Assembly: GCF_009938015.1 (NCBI RefSeq)
Contig: NZ_AP021884.1
Coordinates: forward strand, 1,103,501 to 1,167,500
Source: Sulfuriferula plumbiphila
GTDB taxonomy: Bacteria > Pseudomonadota > Gammaproteobacteria > Burkholderiales > Sulfuriferulaceae
Direction: 5' to 3'
DNA length: 64,000 nucleotides
Part shown: piece after piece, positions 38,796 through 53,633 of the stretch
Layout of the letters: every line of letters starts with the position of its first letter
How positions within the stretch are numbered: the stretch's first letter is position 1
The notes under the pieces: model-generated
The model's database searches: none
What the model was told of the DNA's origin: nothing
Seen by the model: only the letters and a program-made list of their open reading frames with translations
Translations under genes and position numbers: made by a program

Positions 38796-41639
<2,844 letters not shown>

Positions 41640-41760
41640 GGTGGGATGTGCCGAAAACGTTAAAAGTTCATGATTTTACCGCATTCACCACGTAAATTTT
41701 CAGCCGGGAATGGCCATTGCTGGCAGAATCGGACATAAAACCAAAAACAGGGAAGCTGGG

Positions 41761-41875
41761 ATGGACAAATTCACCCGCATTTTCAAGCTGCACCAGATCC
41801 TGGACGGCGCGCCGCGCACCCATTACCCGTACCGATTTGAAAGCCCGGCTCGAATGTTCCAGCGCCTCCCTCACC
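41761..41875 (+). pseudogene. N-terminal fragment of a WYL/DeoR-type regulator
   Basis: MDKFTRIFKLHQILDGA, then, after a one-base frameshift near 41810, APITRTDLKARLECSSAS: the HTH start of YafY-like WYL regulators, which often flank CRISPR-Cas loci. At about 41876 the sequence turns into the 3' part of cas5e. The WYL domain is absent. Confidence 0.65.
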
Positions 41876-42232
41876 TCGGCTCATCGCCGAGGCGCGTACC
41901 TGTTCGACGCGGCGTTTACTGTGGCCGTGGGCAGCAAACCGGGAGCTTCCGTCACACTCACACAGCTCGCCGCTGCCTTGCGTCAGCCTCTCTACACCCC
42001 CTCGCTCGGACGGCGCTCCTGCCCGCTGGCGCGTCCGCTGCTGGAAGGCGAACTCGAAGCTGAAGACGCGCTGGCTGCGCTGGCCAAAACGGCACCTGTG
42101 GACGGACTTGTCTATAGCGAGACGCAGCAATCCGATCAACCCCTGCGCCTGCGCGACGTGCCTCTGCATGGGCACAAACGCCAGTTCGGCACCCGCCTGG
42201 TCTACCTGCACAAGGATCCAACATGTTCCTGA
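41876..42232 (+). pseudogene. cas5e: Cas5e (CasD), N-terminally truncated
   Basis: About 118 codons corresponding to the C-terminal half of Cas5e: GAYLFDAAFTVAVGSKPG, LAAALRQPLYTPSLGRRSCP, PVDGLVYSE, and LHGHKRQFGTRLVYLHK. The N-terminal RRM half is missing, and the remaining frame is fused to a regulator fragment. The 3' end overlaps cas6e by 10 bp as in intact I-E operons. Cascade assembly should be impossible; cas3, cse1, cse2 and cas7 are absent too. Confidence 0.8.
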
Positions 42233-42846
42233 GTCGCGTTGAAATACCTTGGGACGCCGCGCGCAACCCCTACAACCTGCACCGGCAGCTTTGGCATTTG
42301 TTCCCTGGTGAAGACCGTGAATCCCGCAGCAGCGACGACGAAACCCGTCAGGGATTCTTGTTTCGGATCGAGGAAAATGCGACTGGTCGCCCGGCCAGAT
42401 TGCTGGTGCAATCGCGTCGCGCACCGACTCGGGCAAACGGCTTACTCCTCGTTGGCACACGCGAGATCACCCCATGCCCCAGTGCGGGTCAGCGCTTGGC
42501 CTTCGTGCTCACGGCTAACCCGGTTAAAACCATTGTTGACGCCCAGCGCGATGCCAAGCCGGGGAAGCAATCCGAAAAGTGTCGCGTGCCCTTCATCAAG
42601 GAAGAAGAGCAGCGCCAGTGGCTTCTCCGCAAATTGGGCGAAGCGGGCGAAGTCGAGGCTGTCAGTGTACTGCCCCATGCCCCAGTGTATTTCCACAAGG
42701 GTAGCCGTGCCGGCAAGCTCGTAACCGCCACATTTGAGGGGGTGTTGCGCGTGCGAGATCCAGACCGTTTAGCGGCCTTGCTCGCAAACGGCATCGGCCC
42801 CGCCAAAGCCTTCGGCTGCGGTTTGCTGCTGGTGCGGCGGATATAA
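42223..42846 (+). CDS. cas6e: Cas6e (CasE) pre-crRNA endoribonuclease
   Basis: 207 residues, full length. MFLSRVEIPWDAARNPYNLHRQLWHLF contains the catalytic-region His of Cas6e; FLFRIEE and LLVQS follow, and the C-terminal glycine-rich GIGPAKAFGCGLLLV loop that binds the crRNA hairpin is intact. It could still process repeat RNA although its partners are gone. Confidence 0.93.
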   Translation: MFLSRVEIPWDAARNPYNLHRQLWHLFPGEDRESRSSDDETRQGFLFRIEENATGRPARLLVQSRRAPTRANGLLLVGTREITPCPSAGQRLAFVLTANPVKTIVDAQRDAKPGKQSEKCRVPFIKEEEQRQWLLRKLGEAGEVEAVSVLPHAPVYFHKGSRAGKLVTATFEGVLRVRDPDRLAALLANGIGPAKAFGCGLLLVRRI

Positions 42847-42850
42847 CGGT

Positions 42851-42879
42851 TTGCTCGCAGGACTATAGGCCGCTATTAT
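42851..42879 (+). promoter_or_regulatory. Sigma-70-type promoter of the toxin-antitoxin pair
   Basis: TTGCTC, 17 bp, TATTAT; just after it comes ATGCATTGCATATGC, a dyad suited to antitoxin autorepression. AAAGGA and the ATG follow. Confidence 0.6.
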
Positions 42880-42914
42880 AATGCATTGCATATGCGATAC
42901 TCAAAGGAGATGCC

Positions 42915-43196
42915 ATGAAAAACGCCACTTTGCCCCCTTTGCGTGTGGAAAGTGAACTACGCGCGGCGGCTGAATCAGTTTTACAGGAAGGTGAGACCTT
43001 GTCGGGCTTTGTGCTGGAGGCGGTGCGTTTAAATATCGCGCGCCGTGAAGCACAACGCGAATTCATAACGCGCGGCCTGGTTGCGCGTGAAGAGGCCAAA
43101 CTGTCCGGTCATTACGTTTCGTCTGACGAAATGCTCAAGCGCCTGGATGCGTCGCTTGCCAAGGCGCGTGCCAAACAGGCGGTCGGTAACAGGTGA
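42915..43196 (+). CDS. Antitoxin, ribbon-helix-helix (YlcI/YnfO-like)
   Basis: 93 residues. LPPLRVESELRAAAESVLQEG resembles an RHH strand and first helix, followed by ETLSGFVLEAVRLNIARREAQ and a charged helical tail with EEAKLSGHYVSSDEML that would wrap the toxin. Overlaps the toxin gene by 4 bp (GTGA). Confidence 0.8.
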   Translation: MKNATLPPLRVESELRAAAESVLQEGETLSGFVLEAVRLNIARREAQREFITRGLVAREEAKLSGHYVSSDEMLKRLDASLAKARAKQAVGNR

Positions 43197-43492
43197 GGTA
43201 TCAAGTCCGCTTTGCGTCTGCTGCAGCGGATGATTTGCAGCGGCTGTTTGATTTTCTGGCTGAGCAGGATCTGGCCGCAGCCGAGCGGGCGCGGGCGGTA
43301 ATCAGTCAGGCCATTGAGGTTTTGCAAATCTTCCCGTTCAGTTGCCGCAAGGCCTCTCCCGAAAACCCGTTCTTGCGGGAACTGGTGATCAGCTTTGGCA
43401 GCTATGGTTATGTCGCGCTGTTTGAAGTGGAAGATGCCGAAAGCGTGACTGTGCTGGCGGTGCGCCACCAGCGCGAAGACGATTACCACTAA
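43193..43492 (+). CDS. RelE/ParE-family toxin
   Basis: 99 residues, GTG start. YQVRFASAAADDLQRLFDFL opening, helix with ARAVISQAIEVL, FPFSCRKA, then RELVISFGSYGYVALFEVE and TVLAVRHQREDDY, the ParE/RelE beta-sheet end. Whether it targets gyrase or mRNA is not clear; ParE-like features dominate. Complete module with its own promoter, inserted between cas6e and cas1. Confidence 0.85.
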   Translation: MRYQVRFASAAADDLQRLFDFLAEQDLAAAERARAVISQAIEVLQIFPFSCRKASPENPFLRELVISFGSYGYVALFEVEDAESVTVLAVRHQREDDYH

Positions 43493-43505
43493 GCGCAAAC
43501 TCATC

Positions 43506-44703
<1,198 letters not shown>

Positions 44704-44797
44704 CAACATGAATAATTTATCGCTGCCTACCCACGTAAAATTCGGTAGGATTTTAGTGCGTTAGGTTTATTTGGTAGAACAATAAGTTGCAAGAAGT

Positions 44798-44886
44798 GTG
44801 TTCCCCGCACCCGCGGGGATGAACCGCAGCCGCAGCCAATCGCCACGCAGCCTGTCAGGTGTTCCCCGCACCCGCGGGATGAGGCG
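44798..44886 (+). CRISPR. Minimal type I-E CRISPR array (two repeats, one spacer)
   Basis: Repeat 1 at 44798-44826 is 29 bp, GTGTTCCCCGCACCCGCGGG then GATGAACCG, the standard I-E repeat. The spacer at 44827-44858 is 32 bp. Repeat 2 from 44859 has lost one G and differs at its end, as terminal repeats do. About 95 bp of AT-richer leader separate it from cas2. The array has either shrunk or never grown. Confidence 0.9.
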
Positions 44887-45055
44887 ATGGTGAGGCTAAA
44901 TATAGCTAGCGCTATTTTGGTTCTATAGTCAGCTTGAGCAAGCTAGTTATGCAGATGAAGCTTGGCTTGTTTACGCTGCAATATTTTTGTGATACGACTG
45001 ATACCGCGCAAGTGCGCCGGCAGACTCGCCCCCAACGATGCACCAGGAGAAAACA

Positions 45056-45955
45056 ATGAACGCAGTTGTGGAATTTCAGCAGTTCAGCAACGCCAGCTTG
45101 GAACAGGTCCGCATCCGTTTCGATGAAGAATACGGTGTCATGTGGTCGTTCATGCGGCCTGAACCGAGACCGTGCTTTACCAGGACGACATTGCAGGACT
45201 TGTTGCAGCACCATACGTATCTGGAAAGCATGAAAGGACGTGTTGTTTCAAATGGCAATTTTCAGCAGACAAACTATTTGATTTTGGCCTCGGACCTACA
45301 GGGGGTGTTTAATCTTGGCGGCGATCTAGCCGCGTTTGGCGAAGCAATCAGGGCTCAAACGCGAAAGGAGTTATTGTCCTATGCCAAGCTATGCATTGAT
45401 AACGTATGGACTTTCTATAATCTGCAGGCGCCCATCACGACCATTTCCATGGTTCAGGGCCAGGCGATGGGGGGAGGATTTGAGGCAGCGCTATCCGCCC
45501 ATGTGATGATTGCGGAGAAAAGTGCGCTGATGGGCTTGCCGGAAGTGCTGTTCAACCTCTTTCCGGGCATGGGCGCGTTGAGTTTCCTGTCGCGCAAGAT
45601 CGGCATGCGGGCGGCTGAAGCCATGGTGCGCTCGGGCAGGGTATACACGGCGACGGAGCTGCACGAGATGGGCGTGGTGGATGTGCTGGCCGAGGATGGC
45701 CAGGGCGAAAAGACGCTGTATGACTGGATACGCAAGAATCACCGCTCGCTCAATTCGTTCCAGGCCATCCAGCGCGCCAGGCAGCGCGTGAACCCGCTCA
45801 CCGTAGAAGAGCTGTACGAGATCACCGAGATTTGGGTGGATGCGGCGCTGCGCCTGAGCGAGCGCGACCTCAGGATCATGGAGCGCCTGGTGCGGGCGCA
45901 GAACCGCAAGGTGACCGAGCCGGAGCCGGTCGTGGCGGAGCAGGCAAGCGCCTGA
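45056..45955 (+). CDS. rpfF: DSF synthase RpfF (crotonase family)
   Basis: 299 residues from ATG 45056 (AGGAGA site before it). Makes cis-2-unsaturated fatty acid signals from acyl-ACP. SDLQGVFNLGGDLAAF, VQGQAMGGGFEAALSAHVMIAE and MGLPEVLFNLFPGMGALSFL contain the two catalytic Glu residues known in RpfF (GGGFE and LPEVLF). The C-terminal RITEIWVD-like ITEIWVDAALRLSERDLR, then MERLVRAQNR, is typical of RpfF and not of ordinary enoyl-CoA hydratases. Two short dyads (44902-44915, 44931-44944) lie upstream. Convergent with rpfC. Confidence 0.9.
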   Translation: MNAVVEFQQFSNASLEQVRIRFDEEYGVMWSFMRPEPRPCFTRTTLQDLLQHHTYLESMKGRVVSNGNFQQTNYLILASDLQGVFNLGGDLAAFGEAIRAQTRKELLSYAKLCIDNVWTFYNLQAPITTISMVQGQAMGGGFEAALSAHVMIAEKSALMGLPEVLFNLFPGMGALSFLSRKIGMRAAEAMVRSGRVYTATELHEMGVVDVLAEDGQGEKTLYDWIRKNHRSLNSFQAIQRARQRVNPLTVEELYEITEIWVDAALRLSERDLRIMERLVRAQNRKVTEPEPVVAEQASA

Positions 45956-45959
45956 GGCT

Positions 45960-48095
45960 TCAGCGTGCGGCGGTCTGGCGGCGACTGAGGTAATCCTCGA
46001 TGGCGGCGCGCGCGGCTGCGTAGTCCGTGCGCAATAGCCCGACCATGGCGCTACCGCGAAAGCGCAGTTCGCCCGGACCGGCGCGGTCTATGGTTTCGGC
46101 GCGGCCGAATACGCCACGGGCGCCGATGCTCAGGCTATTGCCCTTGAGGGCGTGGCAATGGTCGCGCAGGGCGCCGTATTGTTTTTGCTGCACCGCGTGT
46201 TCGATCCTGTCCAGCAATTCGCCCGAGTCACGCAGGTAATTGCGTAGCAGACGCTGCACAAACAGGGCATCGCCGGCGCCCAGGATTTCCAGTTCCCTGA
46301 GCGTTGCGGCATCCAGCACGGCACGCGTTTCCGCGCTGGCTGGAGGGCTGGAGCGGGAACCGCCCATGACCGTATTCAGCCAGTGTTCGGCGCTGGCGGA
46401 AGGCATGCCCAGCAGATTTGCAATGGTGCCAAACAGGGTGGACGCATCCACAGGCTTGCTCAGGAAAGCATCGAATCCGGCTTCCTTGGCGGCCTGGCGT
46501 GCGCTCAGCGTGGCATCGGCGGTGAACAGGATGAAACGGGTGCGGGTGTCGTCAGCGCGGGTGAAGCGATACAGCTTCAGGGCGTCTGTCCCGCTCAGGC
46601 CGGCCATGTTGAGATCGGCGATGACCAGGTCGAAGCTGGACTGTTCCAGTTGATCCAGCAATTCTTCGCCATTGGCAGACAGGGAGACGTGGTGGCCGGC
46701 CAGCTCCAGTAGCCGCAGCAATATTTTCTGGTTGGTGGCGTCGTCCTCGCACACCAGGATGCGCAGCGTGTTCTCGAGGCCCGCATCCCGGGTGGCGGGC
46801 AATGGCACGATTTCGGCGCTGCCTGGCTGAGCCTGGACCGCTTTTTCCAGTGGCAAGTCGAACCAGAAGCGGCTACCCAGACCCTCTGCGCTTTCGAACG
46901 AGAGGCGTCCACCCATGGCTTCCACCAGATGCCTGGTGATGGTCAGCCCCAGCCCGCTGCCGCCGAAGCGACGCGTGGTGGAGATATCCGCCTGGGTGAA
47001 ACTCTCGAATATTTTGCCTTGTGCGCTGGTGGGAATGCCCACACCGGTGTCCGCCACTTCGAAGCGCATATTGCGGTGATGTTCATTTTCCCCAAGTATT
47101 GAAAGGGAGAGGGTAACGCTGCCGCGCTCTGTGAACTTGACCGCGTTGCCCACCAGATTGGCGAGCACTTGTTGCAGCCGATGAGGGTCGCCGCGCAGTG
47201 TGCCCGCCGCGGCCGCGATGTGGGTATCCAGACGGATGCTTTTGGCTTCCGCCTGGGAGCGGAAGATTTTGACCGTCTCTTCCAGCAGGCTATTCACGGA
47301 AAAATCCGTGTGCTCGATAGCCAGCTTGCCATCTTCGATTTTGGCGAAATCCAGTACGTTATTGAGCAGGGATACCAGCAATCTGGAAGAGCTGTTCAAT
47401 GTGCCGAGCAGGTCCTGTTGCTCGCTGTTGAGCGGGGTCGCCTTGAGCAGGGTACTGATACCGATAATGCCGCTTAAAGGTGTGCGAATCTCGTGGCTCA
47501 TGTTGGCCACAAAGCGGGTTTTCGCGGCGTTGGCTTCTTCCGCTTTTTGCCTGGCCTCGTTCATCCTTCTGATCAGTGCGGAAACATAAATCGGCAAGGC
47601 AAGCAACATTAACATTACGCTATAGCTGATAGCCTCGTGCTCATCCCAGTAAGGATTAACCTGAGTCGTGATGGCAAACCCCACTATGCTTAGTACCTGA
47701 GCATGAATGAGGTATTTTCTGCCGAAGCGGAATCCATTGCCGAAAATGACCCACAAATAAACGCCTACTACCATGACACCTACTTCGCCAGTAAACGCCA
47801 TAAATAATGTTGTCCCTCCCTGATCCACCCATGCTCCTGCCAAACGACGGACAACAGACGGTTTGCTGCTATACAGAATGGAGCCTATTAGTACCAGGGT
47901 AAGGAAAAGAAACACACTGAGAATGCTGAAAGCGACAATGTCATTGTGGCTCAGCGTGGTATGGGTGAGGTAACGGTATAGCAGATACACTAGGATAGCC
48001 AACCCAATACCCAGCCGAATCAATGACTGCTCAAGTTCGACCCTGTCGCATTTCGCAACACGATCAGTGAACCAAATCTTCATTTTATCCAGCAT
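45960..48095 (-). CDS. rpfC: RpfC-type hybrid sensor histidine kinase
   Basis: 711 residues. About five N-terminal membrane helices (residues ~25-175), HisKA with phospho-His ~201 in VANMSHEIRTPLSG, HATPase (NLVGNAVKF, DTGVGIP, GGSGLGLTI), a receiver with Asp ~493 in LVIADLNMAG, and a C-terminal Hpt with His ~648 in HCHALKGNS. That exact order with a short membrane sensor is RpfC, the DSF receptor. Adjacent to rpfF (convergent, 4-bp gap) and downstream of rpfG. Confidence 0.9.
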   Translation of the reverse strand: MLDKMKIWFTDRVAKCDRVELEQSLIRLGIGLAILVYLLYRYLTHTTLSHNDIVAFSILSVFLFLTLVLIGSILYSSKPSVVRRLAGAWVDQGGTTLFMAFTGEVGVMVVGVYLWVIFGNGFRFGRKYLIHAQVLSIVGFAITTQVNPYWDEHEAISYSVMLMLLALPIYVSALIRRMNEARQKAEEANAAKTRFVANMSHEIRTPLSGIIGISTLLKATPLNSEQQDLLGTLNSSSRLLVSLLNNVLDFAKIEDGKLAIEHTDFSVNSLLEETVKIFRSQAEAKSIRLDTHIAAAAGTLRGDPHRLQQVLANLVGNAVKFTERGSVTLSLSILGENEHHRNMRFEVADTGVGIPTSAQGKIFESFTQADISTTRRFGGSGLGLTITRHLVEAMGGRLSFESAEGLGSRFWFDLPLEKAVQAQPGSAEIVPLPATRDAGLENTLRILVCEDDATNQKILLRLLELAGHHVSLSANGEELLDQLEQSSFDLVIADLNMAGLSGTDALKLYRFTRADDTRTRFILFTADATLSARQAAKEAGFDAFLSKPVDASTLFGTIANLLGMPSASAEHWLNTVMGGSRSSPPASAETRAVLDAATLRELEILGAGDALFVQRLLRNYLRDSGELLDRIEHAVQQKQYGALRDHCHALKGNSLSIGARGVFGRAETIDRAGPGELRFRGSAMVGLLRTDYAAARAAIEDYLSRRQTAAR

Positions 48096-48114
48096 GGGTA
48101 GTGGCCTGTCTGCT

Positions 48115-48546
48115 TTACTGTGTTGTGTATTGCCGTCTGCTTTGTTCGAGCAGGGTCCGGGCTATTTTTGACAACTGCGCTGCCCGCGCGGGTTTGATCA
48201 GGCAGGCCGAAACGCCCGCTGCGAGCAATTGTTGATGAATTTTTTCGTCTTTTAGCGCGGTCACCACGATTATCGGCCGCATCGGCTCAATGCTTGAGTC
48301 ACGTACAGCATTGACGAAATGGATGCCGTCCATCTGGTGCATCCGGTAATCGGTGACAATCAGGTCTGCCGGTTTTTGACGCAGCCACTCGAGTGCGGCT
48401 TTGGGATCCGTCATGGATACGATGCGCAAATCCATGGAGAGGGATTTCAGCACTGCAGTGTGGATCGCCAGCACCATGGGCTGATCATCTATGATGAGAA
48501 CGGTCTGGCGATAGGTGGGGGCACTGCGTATATCGCGGACGGACAT
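48115..48546 (-). CDS. Stand-alone response-regulator receiver domain
   Basis: 143 residues, only a receiver: VLIIDDQPMVLAIH acidic pair, phospho-acceptor Asp in LIVTDYRMHQMDGI, Thr in VVTALKD, and Lys in ACLIKPARAAQ. There is no output domain. It lies between rpfG and rpfC, on the same strand. Its opening resembles the RpfG receiver (VLILDDQ), so it may be a duplicate acting as a phosphate sink or intermediate in the DSF phosphorelay. Confidence 0.88.
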   Translation of the reverse strand: MSVRDIRSAPTYRQTVLIIDDQPMVLAIHTAVLKSLSMDLRIVSMTDPKAALEWLRQKPADLIVTDYRMHQMDGIHFVNAVRDSSIEPMRPIIVVTALKDEKIHQQLLAAGVSACLIKPARAAQLSKIARTLLEQSRRQYTTQ

Positions 48547-48639
48547 GGGGCTGAGGGAATCTCGAGTGAGAATAAACGCTGTGAAGCAAAAGATGCGAGC
48601 ATCGTGGCGCCCATTTTTTGGGTTCCTCGGGTATCGGAT

Positions 48640-49707
48640 TCAGCCGGGTTCGGCATGTTCTTCCTGGATTTTTTCCACGGACGCCTCAAGCGTAAGCATG
48701 GCTTTTACCAGTGCGGGATCGAAATGCCGGCCGCTTTCCTTGAGCAGATACTGCATGGCCGATTTGATGCTCCATGCGGATTTGTAGGGCCGCACCGAGG
48801 TGAGTGCGTCAAACACGTCAGCGATAGCCACGATGCGTGCGGAGAGCGGGATGTCTTGACCGGTAGTGCCAAACGGGTAACCCGATCCGTCGTAGCGTTC
48901 ATGATGGGCCAGGGCAATTTCGCCCCCCAGCCGCAGGTATTTGGATGGGCTGTCTTCCAGAATGTCGTGCCCGATTTTCGGGTGCTGGCGCATGATGGCA
49001 AGCTCCTCGTCCGAGAGCGGCCCGTTCTTGCGCAGGATGCTGTCCGGAATGCCGATTTTTCCGATATCGTGCAAAGGAGCAGCGAGTTCAATGAGCTCTG
49101 CCTCGTCTTCGGGCAGCCCAATCGCATCCGCCAGCACGCGGCTGTAGCGGGACATGCGCAGCAGGTGCCTGGCAGTATCAGTATCCCGGTATTCCCCGGC
49201 ACGGGCGAGCCGCATCAGGGTGTCTTTTTCCCGACAGCGGATTTCCTCTGTGGCCTGACCAACCATATCCTCCAGCACCCGGCTCTTGTCTTCCAGAGCC
49301 AGTTGCTGCTGCCGCAGCGTCAGCAGATTGCGGCAGCGTGAAAGGCACTCGCGCATGTCCACGGGCTTGGTGAGAAAATCGGTCATACCCGCGTCCAGTG
49401 CCGCGTAACGCGTTTCCATATCCTGCTTGATGGTGACCATGACGACCGGAACGTGTTGATAGCCGGGTAATTGGCGCAAGCGGCCAATAAACTCGACGCC
49501 ATTCATGTCGGGCATCAAATAGTCTGCCAGCACCAGATCGGCAGGGTGGGCTGCTGCCCAGGCCAGTGCGGCGGAAGGCGTGGTTTCTTCTTGTACCCTG
49601 ATACCGGAGCCGATGCTGCGAACAACCTGGGCTAGAATGGTGCGGCTTGTAGCCTGGTCGTCGAGGATCAGGACGGCACTGGTGTCTGGCAGATTAAAAT
49701 TGGTCAT
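48640..49707 (-). CDS. rpfG: RpfG-type response regulator with HD-GYP domain
   Basis: Receiver (AVLILDDQATSRTILA, DLVLADYLMPDMNG with phospho-Asp, FLTKPVDM), a linker helix, then HD-GYP: LHDIGKIGIPDSILRKNGPL, HHERYDGSGYPFGTTG, and AIADVFDALTSVRPYK. Hydrolyses cyclic di-GMP when phosphorylated by RpfC. ATG 49707 used; another ATG 24 bp upstream is equally lacking a clear ribosome site. First gene of rpfG-receiver-rpfC. Confidence 0.92.
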   Translation of the reverse strand: MTNFNLPDTSAVLILDDQATSRTILAQVVRSIGSGIRVQEETTPSAALAWAAAHPADLVLADYLMPDMNGVEFIGRLRQLPGYQHVPVVMVTIKQDMETRYAALDAGMTDFLTKPVDMRECLSRCRNLLTLRQQQLALEDKSRVLEDMVGQATEEIRCREKDTLMRLARAGEYRDTDTARHLLRMSRYSRVLADAIGLPEDEAELIELAAPLHDIGKIGIPDSILRKNGPLSDEELAIMRQHPKIGHDILEDSPSKYLRLGGEIALAHHERYDGSGYPFGTTGQDIPLSARIVAIADVFDALTSVRPYKSAWSIKSAMQYLLKESGRHFDPALVKAMLTLEASVEKIQEEHAEPG

Positions 49708-49969
49708 GGTGCCGGCTGGTGGTGAGTCCACATGATGTCGTTGATAATATCGGCAGGAGTAACTGAAGCTTTATGAACATTTGCTGATTTTTTTGCGCGC
49801 TGATCGCGTAGCGCTTGATGAGGTCCGGATCGTGCAGCTGTAACGATATGATTTTATATAACAAACACATAGGAGATGGCGCTATGGGTATAATCCGCAC
49901 ATGACTCTGAATATGAATATGTCATCCGCTTCATTATAACCACTGTGCAATCAACCATTCCGGAATCTC

Positions 49970-51169
<1,200 letters not shown>

Positions 51170-51172
51170 ACG

Positions 51173-51550
51173 GTGCGGCATCCGTCTCGTCCCGTTTACC
51201 TCAACATCTTCAAAATCCACCTGCCCTTGCCGGGCTGGATGTCGATCCTGCAGCGCATGAGCGGTGCAGTTCTTTTTCTCGTCACGCCGCTGCTGTTATA
51301 TCTGCTGCAAACCTCATTTGACGCCGACGGCTACGCACGGCTGCGCGAGTGGCTGCACATACCGGTGGTCAAAGCGCTGTCGACGCTATTGCTGTGGGGC
51401 TATTTGCTGCATCTGCTGGGCGGATTGCGCTTTTTGCTGCTGGATATCCATGTCGGCACGGCGTTGGCGACGGCGCGCAAGCTGTCTGCCGCTACGCTAC
51501 TGGCAAGTGCCTTGCTGACCCTGGTCATCGCGGGGATAGGGCTGTGGTAG
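51173..51550 (+). CDS. sdhC: Succinate dehydrogenase cytochrome b556 subunit
   Basis: 125 residues, GTG start. [20 protein letters not shown] and [13 protein letters not shown] are the SdhC signature; three membrane helices; [20 protein letters not shown] has the heme-region His (first His of the usual HLLxGxRHL), with Phe in place of the second. Membrane anchor, quinone site. Confidence 0.92.
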
Positions 51551-51873
51551 GCGGTGCGCTGTCTGCGTGGCTGGTGCAGCGCGTGAGTGCGCTGCTGCTG
51601 GCGGCATACGCGCTGTTTTTCCCGGTGTGGGTCGCGCTGCACTGGCCGCTCGATTTTGCCGTCTGGCGCGGGTTGTTCGCGCCCTTGCCGATGCGGATTG
51701 TGACGCTGCTGTTCGTGGTGGCGCTGGCGCTGCATGCCTGGGTGGGGATGCGCGATATTTTCATGGATTATGTGCAGCCGCTCGGGCTGCGTCTGGCGCT
51801 GCATGTGGGGGCGCTGCTCTGGCTGGCGACCTGCGTGGTGTGGGCAGGCGCGGTTTTATGGAGCTTGCCATGA
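51544..51873 (+). CDS. sdhD: Succinate dehydrogenase membrane anchor subunit
   Basis: 109 residues from GTG 51544, overlapping sdhC by 7 bp. [20 protein letters not shown] and [17 protein letters not shown] are the SdhD signature with heme-ligand His and quinone-site Tyr/Asp. Three membrane helices. The stop TGA overlaps the sdhA ATG. Confidence 0.92.
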
Positions 51874-53633
51874 TGCCGGTCAAGCGCAAATTCGACGCAG
51901 TCATCGTCGGCGGCGGCGGGGCAGGGCTGCGCGCCGCGTTGCAGCTGTCCGGTTCCGGCCTGCAGGTGGCGGTGGTGTCGAAGGTATTCCCGACGCGCTC
52001 GCACACGGTGTCGGCCCAGGGCGGCATTACCGCCGCGCTGGGCAATGTCACGCCGGACAACTGGCACTGGCACATGTATGACACGGTGAAAGGCTCGGAT
52101 TATCTGGGCGACCAGGATGCCATCGAATTCATGTGCCGCCATGCCGCGGAAGCGGTGATCGAACTGGAGCACATGGGGCTGCCGTTCTCGCGTCTGGACA
52201 ATGGCCGCATCTACCAGCGCGCGTTCGGCGGCCAATCCATGAATTATGGCGGTGAGCAGGCCACGCGCACCTGCGCTGCCGCCGACCGCACCGGTCATGC
52301 GCTGCTGCATACCTTGCACCAGCAGAATCTCAAGGCCCACACCCATTTTTTCGACGAGTACTTCGCGCTTGATCTGCTGCGCGACGCCGACGGCTATGTG
52401 CTGGGCGTGACCGCGCTGTGCATCGAAACCGGCGCGCCGCTGGTGATTGAGGCGCGCGCCACGCTGCTTGCAACCGGCGGGGCGGGACGCATTTTTCGCT
52501 ACTCCACCAACGCCCACATCAATACCGGCGATGGTCTGGGTATGGTGTTGCGGGCAGGTCTGGCGTTGCAGGACATGGAGTTCTGGCAGTTTCACCCCAC
52601 CGGGCTGCCCGGCTCGGGCAGCCTGATTACCGAAGGTGTGCGCGGCGAGGGCGGTTATCTGGTCAACAACCAGGGCGAGCGTTTCATGGAACGCTACGCG
52701 CCGCACGCCAAAGACCTCGCCGGGCGCGATGTGGTGGCGCGCGCGTTGGCGCTGGAAATTCATGCAGGGCGTGGTTGCGGGCCGCACGGCGACACCATAC
52801 ACCTCAAGCTCGACCACCTCGGCGCGGCACTCATCAAGGACAAGCTGCCGGGTATCCGCGAACTGGCGCTGCGTTTTGCCGGGGTGGATCCGATTGACGC
52901 ACCCATCCCGGTGGTGCCCACTGCCCACTACATGATGGGCGGCATTCCCACCGATCTGCATGGCCAGGTGGTGATGCCCGCGCGTTTCGGGCCGGAGGAG
53001 CCGGTGCCCGGGCTGTACGCAGTGGGTGAGTGCGCCTGCGTGTCGGTGCACGGCGCCAACCGGCTGGGGGGCAACTCGCTGCTGGACCTGGTGGTGTTTG
53101 GTCGTGCCGCCGGCAATCACATCATCGAAACCCTGCGCGATAATCCGTTCCCGCGCCTGTTGCCGGAATCCGCAGCCGAAGCGGCGTTGGCGCGGCTGGC
53201 GCGCTGGAATAAAACCGGCGCGGGAGAAAGCGTGGCCGAGCTGCGTCTGGCGCTGCAAACGCTGATGCAAAAACATTGCGGCGTATTCCGTACCGAAACG
53301 CTGATGGGTGAGGGCATTGCCGCACTGGATATCCTGCAGGCCAGATTGGATAACGCCCGCCTTGCAGACCACAGCCAGGTATTCAATACTGCCCGCATCG
53401 AGGCGCTGGAGCTGGAGAATCTGTTTGCCGTGGCCCGCGCCACGCTGGTTTCCGCGCATGCGCGCACCGAGAGCCGGGGCGCGCATGCGCGTGAGGATTA
53501 TCCCGAACGCGATGACGGCCACTGGCTGAAACACACCCTGTACACACGGGAAAACGACCAGATTGACACCAAGCCGGTGCGCCTGAAGCCGCTCACAGTC
53601 GAACCGTTTTTACCCAAGGAGCGAATCTACTGA
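51870..53633 (+). CDS. sdhA: Succinate dehydrogenase flavoprotein subunit
   Basis: 587 residues from ATG 51870, supported by GGAG 6 bp upstream and ATGA overlap with sdh[18 protein letters not shown] site, covalent-FAD His in [33 protein letters not shown] active site, [19 protein letters not shown], and a typical C-terminal [10 protein letters not shown]-like end ([12 protein letters not shown]). Confidence 0.97.

Follow-up and report, generated by a model that had tools for sequence, protein, structure and literature searches.

The window, a stretch of 64,000 nucleotides from the 3.45-Mb single-contig genome of Sulfuriferula plumbiphila (G000:C1:1103501-1167500), carries a small cas cluster on the plus strand, flanked by a divergent minus-strand gene at 38796-41639, presumably an aconitase gene judging from its sequence, and by a gene at 45038-45955. 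All features of the cluster lie on the plus strand. The cluster begins with two pieces of a WYL-type regulator in different frames, namely residues 1-17 at 41761-41811 (frame A, with the ATG at 41761) and residues from about 15 to 38, the helix-turn-helix (HTH), at 41804-41875 (frame B, which is the Cas5e frame). A zone of 24 nt (41873-41896) separates the regulator from the C-terminal half of cas5e (41897-42232), which is followed by cas6e with an intact open frame (42223-42846; TIGR01907, E 1.3e-39, model positions 1-207 of 208). The gap between cas6e and cas1 (42846-43506) contains a ParE toxin pair. The cas1e gene (43506-44426) is cut at codon 92 by a stop in its own frame (TAA, 43779-43781); on either side of it the Cas1e model TIGR03638 is still matched, in one frame. 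The open frame of cas2e (44407-44703) is intact (TIGR01873, E 3.4e-33). The array beside cas2e consists of two repeats (44798-44826 and 44859-44887) and a sole spacer of 32 nt (44827-44858); the second repeat is degenerate at its 3′ end, while its first 20 nt are identical to those of repeat 1. We take the repeat to be of the I-E type; a genome search for its first 20 nt, allowing up to 2 mismatches, found just these two copies. No phage match was found for the spacer. Two weak Rhizobium plasmid matches (E 0.4, query bases 1-30 of 38) were considered as a spacer source and judged to be chance.

The genome of 3.45 Mb yielded no match to cse1 and none to cas7e. Its only Cas3 HD match lies at 2.636 Mb in a type I-C locus, to which the sole full-length Cas5 of the genome also belongs. 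The earlier note had considered that the interference genes might lie at another locus, cut from this one by rearrangement; such relocation is ruled out for cse1 and cas7e by the lack of genome matches (cse2 lay outside the separate search). By its genes the cluster is a remnant only of type I-E, which comprises cse1, cse2, cas7e, cas5e, cas6e and cas1e-cas2e, and since cse1 and cas7e are absent, it cannot carry out interference. The same note held that processing and acquisition genes had been left in place, which is correct for the open frames of cas6e and cas2, but cas1 carries the stop codon and the array is down to two repeats. Judging from the broken cas1, spacer acquisition is probably impossible.

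The type I-C locus (G000:C1:2634647-2646100; L003:6648-18100) is apparently complete, with its own WYL regulator, cas3, cas5, Csd1 (cas8c), cas7, cas4, cas1 and 16 array copies; a 96-residue ORF at the cas2 position was assigned by position alone. With this locus in place, the I-E interference genes may have become dispensable. A PemK toxin gene and an RHH gene were also observed between its cas4 and cas1, on the opposite strand.

The regulator-Cas5e junction

The ORF at 41717-42232 matched only the C-terminal half of the Cas5 models, i.e. positions 102-217 of PF09704 in Pfam (E 1.1e-14) and positions 104-228 of TIGR01868 (Cas5e) in NCBIfam (E 4.4e-20). For the stretch preceding Cas5e, an HMM of the WYL N-terminus was built from the first approximately 75 residues of 14 WYL regulators (13 beside I-E loci and the one of the genome's own I-C locus) and used to search the window as 1870 six-frame segments. 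The top two matches fell on a single stretch, read in different frames: frame A matched model positions 1-17 (E 0.0047) and frame B positions 15-38 (segment E 0.0016). The third-ranked segment had an E value of 0.55, and the best among 2550 segments of a reversed-window control had one of 5.2. The frame-A translation (60 residues) gave no match in Pfam or NCBIfam. Because the two modest matches abut both in the sequence and in the model, the N-terminus of the regulator is present, with a one-base frame change (an extra base) near 41809, within 41806-41812. The regulator is represented by HTH residues 1-38 only and is thus a remnant of the family architecture of HTH, PF13280 and PF25583. Codon 39 specifies serine here, while 11 of 12 compared WYL genes have arginine at this place (L106 with a shift of one residue) and L052 has isoleucine, so the WYL homology ends at or before 41875. 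Homology to Cas5e begins at the tyrosine codon at 41897, corresponding to residue 125 of the 237-residue homologue in locus L036.

A junction at about 41876, as previously proposed, is therefore right to within a few bases. The frame was also said to pass from the HTH directly into Cas5e; HTH residues from about 15 to 38 do stand in the Cas5e frame, but the regulator's ATG stands in the other one. As the two frames differ, the open frame at 41717-42232 does not form a gene beginning with that ATG. Between the two homologies, the zone 41873-41896 resembles neither parent. A perfect 7-bp hairpin with a 5-nt loop (41874-41892) lies inside it, and such a hairpin falls wholly within 203 of the 63976 24-nt zones of the window (0.32%). 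Fold-back copying during repair would leave a hairpin at the junction, although this one was spotted after the fact and is a hint only. The statement of the earlier note that the junction fixes the mechanism by which interference was lost goes too far: the repair mechanism at the breakpoint is not fixed, because the zone fits neither parent and a parental allele, which is needed to distinguish microhomology from filler, was not found among the loci collected.

Ancestral gene order and extent of the deletion

For comparison, 80 loci around relatives of cas6e (the best 80 of 195) were collected; cas6e matches occurred in 26 of 200 related genomes, this genome included, and longer stretches were taken for two. 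The order cas3-cse1-cse2-cas7-cas5-cas6 is standard among these relatives. The proposed comparison with a relative carrying a full I-E locus and a WYL gene upstream of cas3 could be made, e.g. with L036 from Nitrosomonas sp. Nm33, in which WYL, cas3, cse1, cse2, cas7, cas5, cas6, cas1 and cas2 follow each other on one strand (WYL named by Pfam, the other genes by NCBIfam). The regulator of this locus (L036:2393-3379) is intact, with HTH, WYL (PF13280) and WCX (PF25583) domains. The order from WYL to cas6 was also seen in L116. A same-strand WYL match ahead of cas3 was present in 19 of the 73 relatives bearing cas3, in some of them partial or up to 3.2 kb away; many others had no WYL or were cut short. 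When 12 WYL-bearing loci were cut at both equivalent points, 7027-9517 bp were removed (median about 7380).

Among the loci collected there was neither an intact allele from the same species nor one from a close sister locus. A genome of the same genus (G010) has a complete I-E locus downstream of, and beside, a gene that we take to be integrase-like, with no WYL match upstream. This arrangement makes horizontal acquisition of the I-E loci in the genus probable, and for the site in the window we infer the ancestral order from more distant relatives.

The locus is very probably a relic of a type I-E CRISPR-Cas system, made by a deletion of about 7.0-9.5 kb from the WYL gene to cas5e. The deletion would have joined codon ~38 of the regulator to codon ~125 of cas5e and taken with it the ligand-binding body of the regulator, cas3, cse1, cse2, cas7 and the first half of cas5e. 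Left behind would be cas6e, the ParE toxin pair, the nonsense-broken cas1, cas2 and the two-repeat array, and these surviving genes, deprived of the cas3-cse1 region, would now be preceded by the start region of the regulator itself. A promoter scan gave one match, on the minus strand, versus 1.3 expected. The order from WYL to cas6 on one strand in relatives gives exactly this junction, so that one deletion explains it, as the earlier note had supposed. A single deletion is the best reading; we infer both that a single event took place and that it was the first, since the loci collected included no parental allele and interference loss could predate the deletion.

Similarity between the retained Cas5e, Cas6e, Cas1 and Cas2 and their counterparts in relatives is roughly that found among the relatives themselves, which suggests that the decay is young compared with the divergence of the species. 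The cas6e identity to the closest relatives is 73-75%, and the retained Cas5e half is 57-68% identical in nine window pairs versus 53-84% in 36 other pairs. In a relaxed-selection test, the cas6e identity was subtracted from that of the cas5e C-terminal half in 45 pairs from 10 loci with all four genes (L038 and L044, which have no cas2, were excluded). The difference averaged -4.7 points in the window pairs (-9 to 0, nine pairs only) and -0.3 points in the 36 other pairs (-12 to +10).

Several smaller deletions could yield the same end state. The possibility that the locus decayed stepwise, through more than one deletion or because interference had been inactivated earlier, with the present junction merely the last step, is a minority one that deserves to be kept in mind. 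At least two other lesions, the frame change in the regulator and the TAA in cas1, would suit it, as would the 24-nt zone belonging to neither parent, since a blunt or microhomology join would need later change to produce such a zone. Against it, only a single junction is visible, its two collinear sides have nothing further between them, and other damage to the retained genes is slight. It is rather improbable that the truncation had already taken place when the locus was transferred horizontally into this genome. Third-position GC is 0.61-0.69 in the cas genes versus 0.73-0.83 in three neighbouring chromosomal genes, and any cas6e match was found in only 3 of 17 other genomes of the genus, one of them close; these data make a transfer of the ancestral locus likely, yet nothing shows that the deletion came before it, and the lesions look recent against the cas6e identity to the nearest relatives. 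An assembly artefact or misjoin is very improbable, given a single-contig genome that is 100% complete and 1.8% contaminated, in which no misplaced copies of cse1 or cas7e were found elsewhere; of 20 direct-repeat families (out of 21, at least 20 nt, window 41000-52000), none has a copy at the junction, and the independent lesions in cas1 and in the array suit a relic. The reading of the junction as a working new gene, a fusion of the regulator HTH to Cas5e domesticated to regulate cas6e, the toxin pair, cas1 and cas2, was dropped as the main one on account of the regulator's start codon in another frame and is scarcely credible: HTH residues 17-38 and Cas5e do share an open frame (41696-42229), but before Cas5e this frame offers TTG only and no ATG or GTG start, the HTH ends after residue 38 and Cas5e is without its N-terminal half.

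Such I-E relics look uncommon across the class, from which 369 genomes were sampled. A cas1e match at E<1e-100 was found in 24 of them, and 23 of the 24 also carried cse1, this genome being the exception and thus an uncommon case. Among the 32 cas1e matches listed, only that of this genome had an internal stop. Eight weaker cas1e matches lay outside the count of 24. For two of these (G434 and G258) cse1 was found. Four others (G207, G235, G260 and G326) belong to divergent I-E-like loci with matches to cas3, cas7, cas5, cas6, cas1 and cas2 and with approximately 2 to 2.6 kb free where cse1 (and cse2) would lie; in G260, the one genome of the four for which ORFs were listed, a 517-residue ORF occupies the cse1 position. 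In G431 only cas1-cas2 matched nearby, and G551, at a contig edge, lay outside the locus comparison. Divergent I-E-like loci with WYL neighbours were observed at L146:850-11356, L147:757-10621 (WYL on the opposite strand) and L148:1139-10880. Their cas1 is about 35% identical to that of L036, a Pfam Cse1 match was found in none of the three, and L147 has a 517-residue ORF at the cse1 position.

Toxin-antitoxin cargo between cas6e and cas1

The pair between cas6e and cas1 has the arrangement of a ParE-type type II module. A putative antitoxin with a YlcI/YnfO-type N-terminal domain (42915-43196; NF041551, E 3.2e-15, no Pfam match) overlaps a ParE-family toxin that starts at 43193 (43193-43492; PF05016, E 2.8e-15). 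Judged by these domains and by the overlap, the two genes would be a toxin-antitoxin pair, with toxicity and its neutralisation predicted. Just upstream, at 42885-42898, 9-nt palindromic arms (89% complementary) could be observed, possibly an antitoxin operator.

In related I-E loci, counted without those of this genome, the cas6-cas1 gap exceeded 240 bp in 49 of 75 cases and 500 bp in 41 of 75. Gaps of more than 240 bp occurred in 0/86 cases between cas7 and cas5, 0/85 between cas5 and cas6, 0/68 between cas1 and cas2, 1/67 between cse1 and cse2, 6/71 between cse2 and cas7, 17/72 between cas3 and cse1, and 6/19 between WYL and cas3. This first set was gathered by cas6e similarity, so its loci are mutually related and the counts ignore phylogeny; after removal of one of each of three near-identical pairs, the cas6-cas1 gap was still above 240 bp in 47 of 72. 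With the window, the enlarged gaps number 50, and in 37 of them the cargo was scanned gene by gene, often one gene per pair. By our reading, domains of the type II toxin-antitoxin kind were present in 22 of these 37, the window included, and comprised ParE, PIN, DUF3368/UPF0175, DUF433/DUF5615, HepT and GNAT, with HTH alone in two. Other single-gene cargo (Fic, DUF1016/YhcG, Bro-N, KilA-N) was found in 11 of the 37, and four of the 37 gave no domain match. A tally of 84 cargo ORFs, for which 25 of 40 matching families were listed, agrees with this picture. A second set was taken from the class-wide cas1e matches: 23 loci, reduced to 19 by removing two duplicates and two loci of unusual gene order. 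The gap exceeded 240 bp in 12 of the 19, or in 12 of 23 when four divergent short-gap loci are counted, and a toxin-antitoxin-type domain was found in eight of the ten enlarged gaps scanned (of 12), in one of them HTH only.

We tentatively suggest, as an idea that may well prove wrong, that the cas6e-cas1 gap is a standing docking site for interchangeable cargo and that addictive cargo steers the decay of I-E systems. The site would lie between the interference and adaptation modules, and a toxin pair in mid-operon can block deletions in which antitoxin and toxin would be lost jointly. Deletions might then erode the interference side up to cas6e, yet not pass the toxin pair. Such a block would account for the position of the deletion's right end, immediately ahead of cas6e, and for the retention of cas6e, cas1 and cas2 around the pair. 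Among the loci examined, a second clear relic was not found.

Significance and comparison with known systems

The scar itself would be ordinary decay and a clear natural example of the death of a CRISPR system, in which one deletion would have removed a regulator together with interference, other lesions alongside, and a second system persists in the genome. The pattern of cargo in the cas6e-cas1 hot spot is of more interest to us and could matter more widely than the scar. If the cargo is addictive, the retention versus loss of modules in relics becomes testable, as does the stabilisation of CRISPR loci by ordinary protein toxin-antitoxin pairs.

No report of a toxin-antitoxin site between cas6e and cas1 was found in the titles and abstract openings searched, which covered few subscription papers, and this is no demonstration that the site is new. 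The accessible text of a 2025 review of toxin-antitoxin/CRISPR coupling (PMC12737573) contains neither 'I-E' nor 'ParE'. Toxin-antitoxin modules are discussed as contributors to CRISPR origins in the available parts of Makarova 2011 (PMC3150331) and of Koonin and Makarova 2019 (PMC6452270). PIN, COG2442 and HicB are among the genes 'loosely associated' with cas loci in Table 3 of Makarova 2006 (PMC1462988). Those genes resemble the present ones as toxin-antitoxin genes near cas genes, but the accessible portion of that paper gives no preferred position for them, whereas the cargo described here occupies the cas6e-cas1 gap and belongs to various families.

CreTA RNA toxin-antitoxins guard CRISPR-Cas, according to the available text of the papers describing them (PMC8501985, PMC9458426, PMC10097628), and share with the present pair the nesting of addiction genes inside a CRISPR locus. 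CreTA, however, combines an RNA antitoxin with Cascade, by which that antitoxin is guided, whereas the pair in the window is protein-coding. The genome has no I-E Cascade, as cse1 and cas7e are unmatched throughout it, and a whole-genome search that allowed up to 2 mismatches found no repeat copies beyond the two of the array. The CreTA arrangement, in which the guided RNA antitoxin represses an RNA toxin, was thus not seen here.

WYL-domain regulators beside CRISPR loci are known (Makarova 2014, PMC4012209). As far as the accessible part of that source describes them, the remnant in the window differs in having lost WYL, WCX and the rest of the HTH and in its broken frame, and it resembles them in the N-terminal HTH residues 1-38 and in its position and strand upstream of a cas operon. 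From a type I-E system the locus as a whole differs in having no cas3, cse1, cse2, cas7 or first half of cas5e, an interrupted cas1, two repeats only and a toxin pair between cas6e and cas1. It is like such a system in the C-terminal half of Cas5e, in Cas6e, Cas1e and Cas2e, and in the gene order of the part that has been retained.
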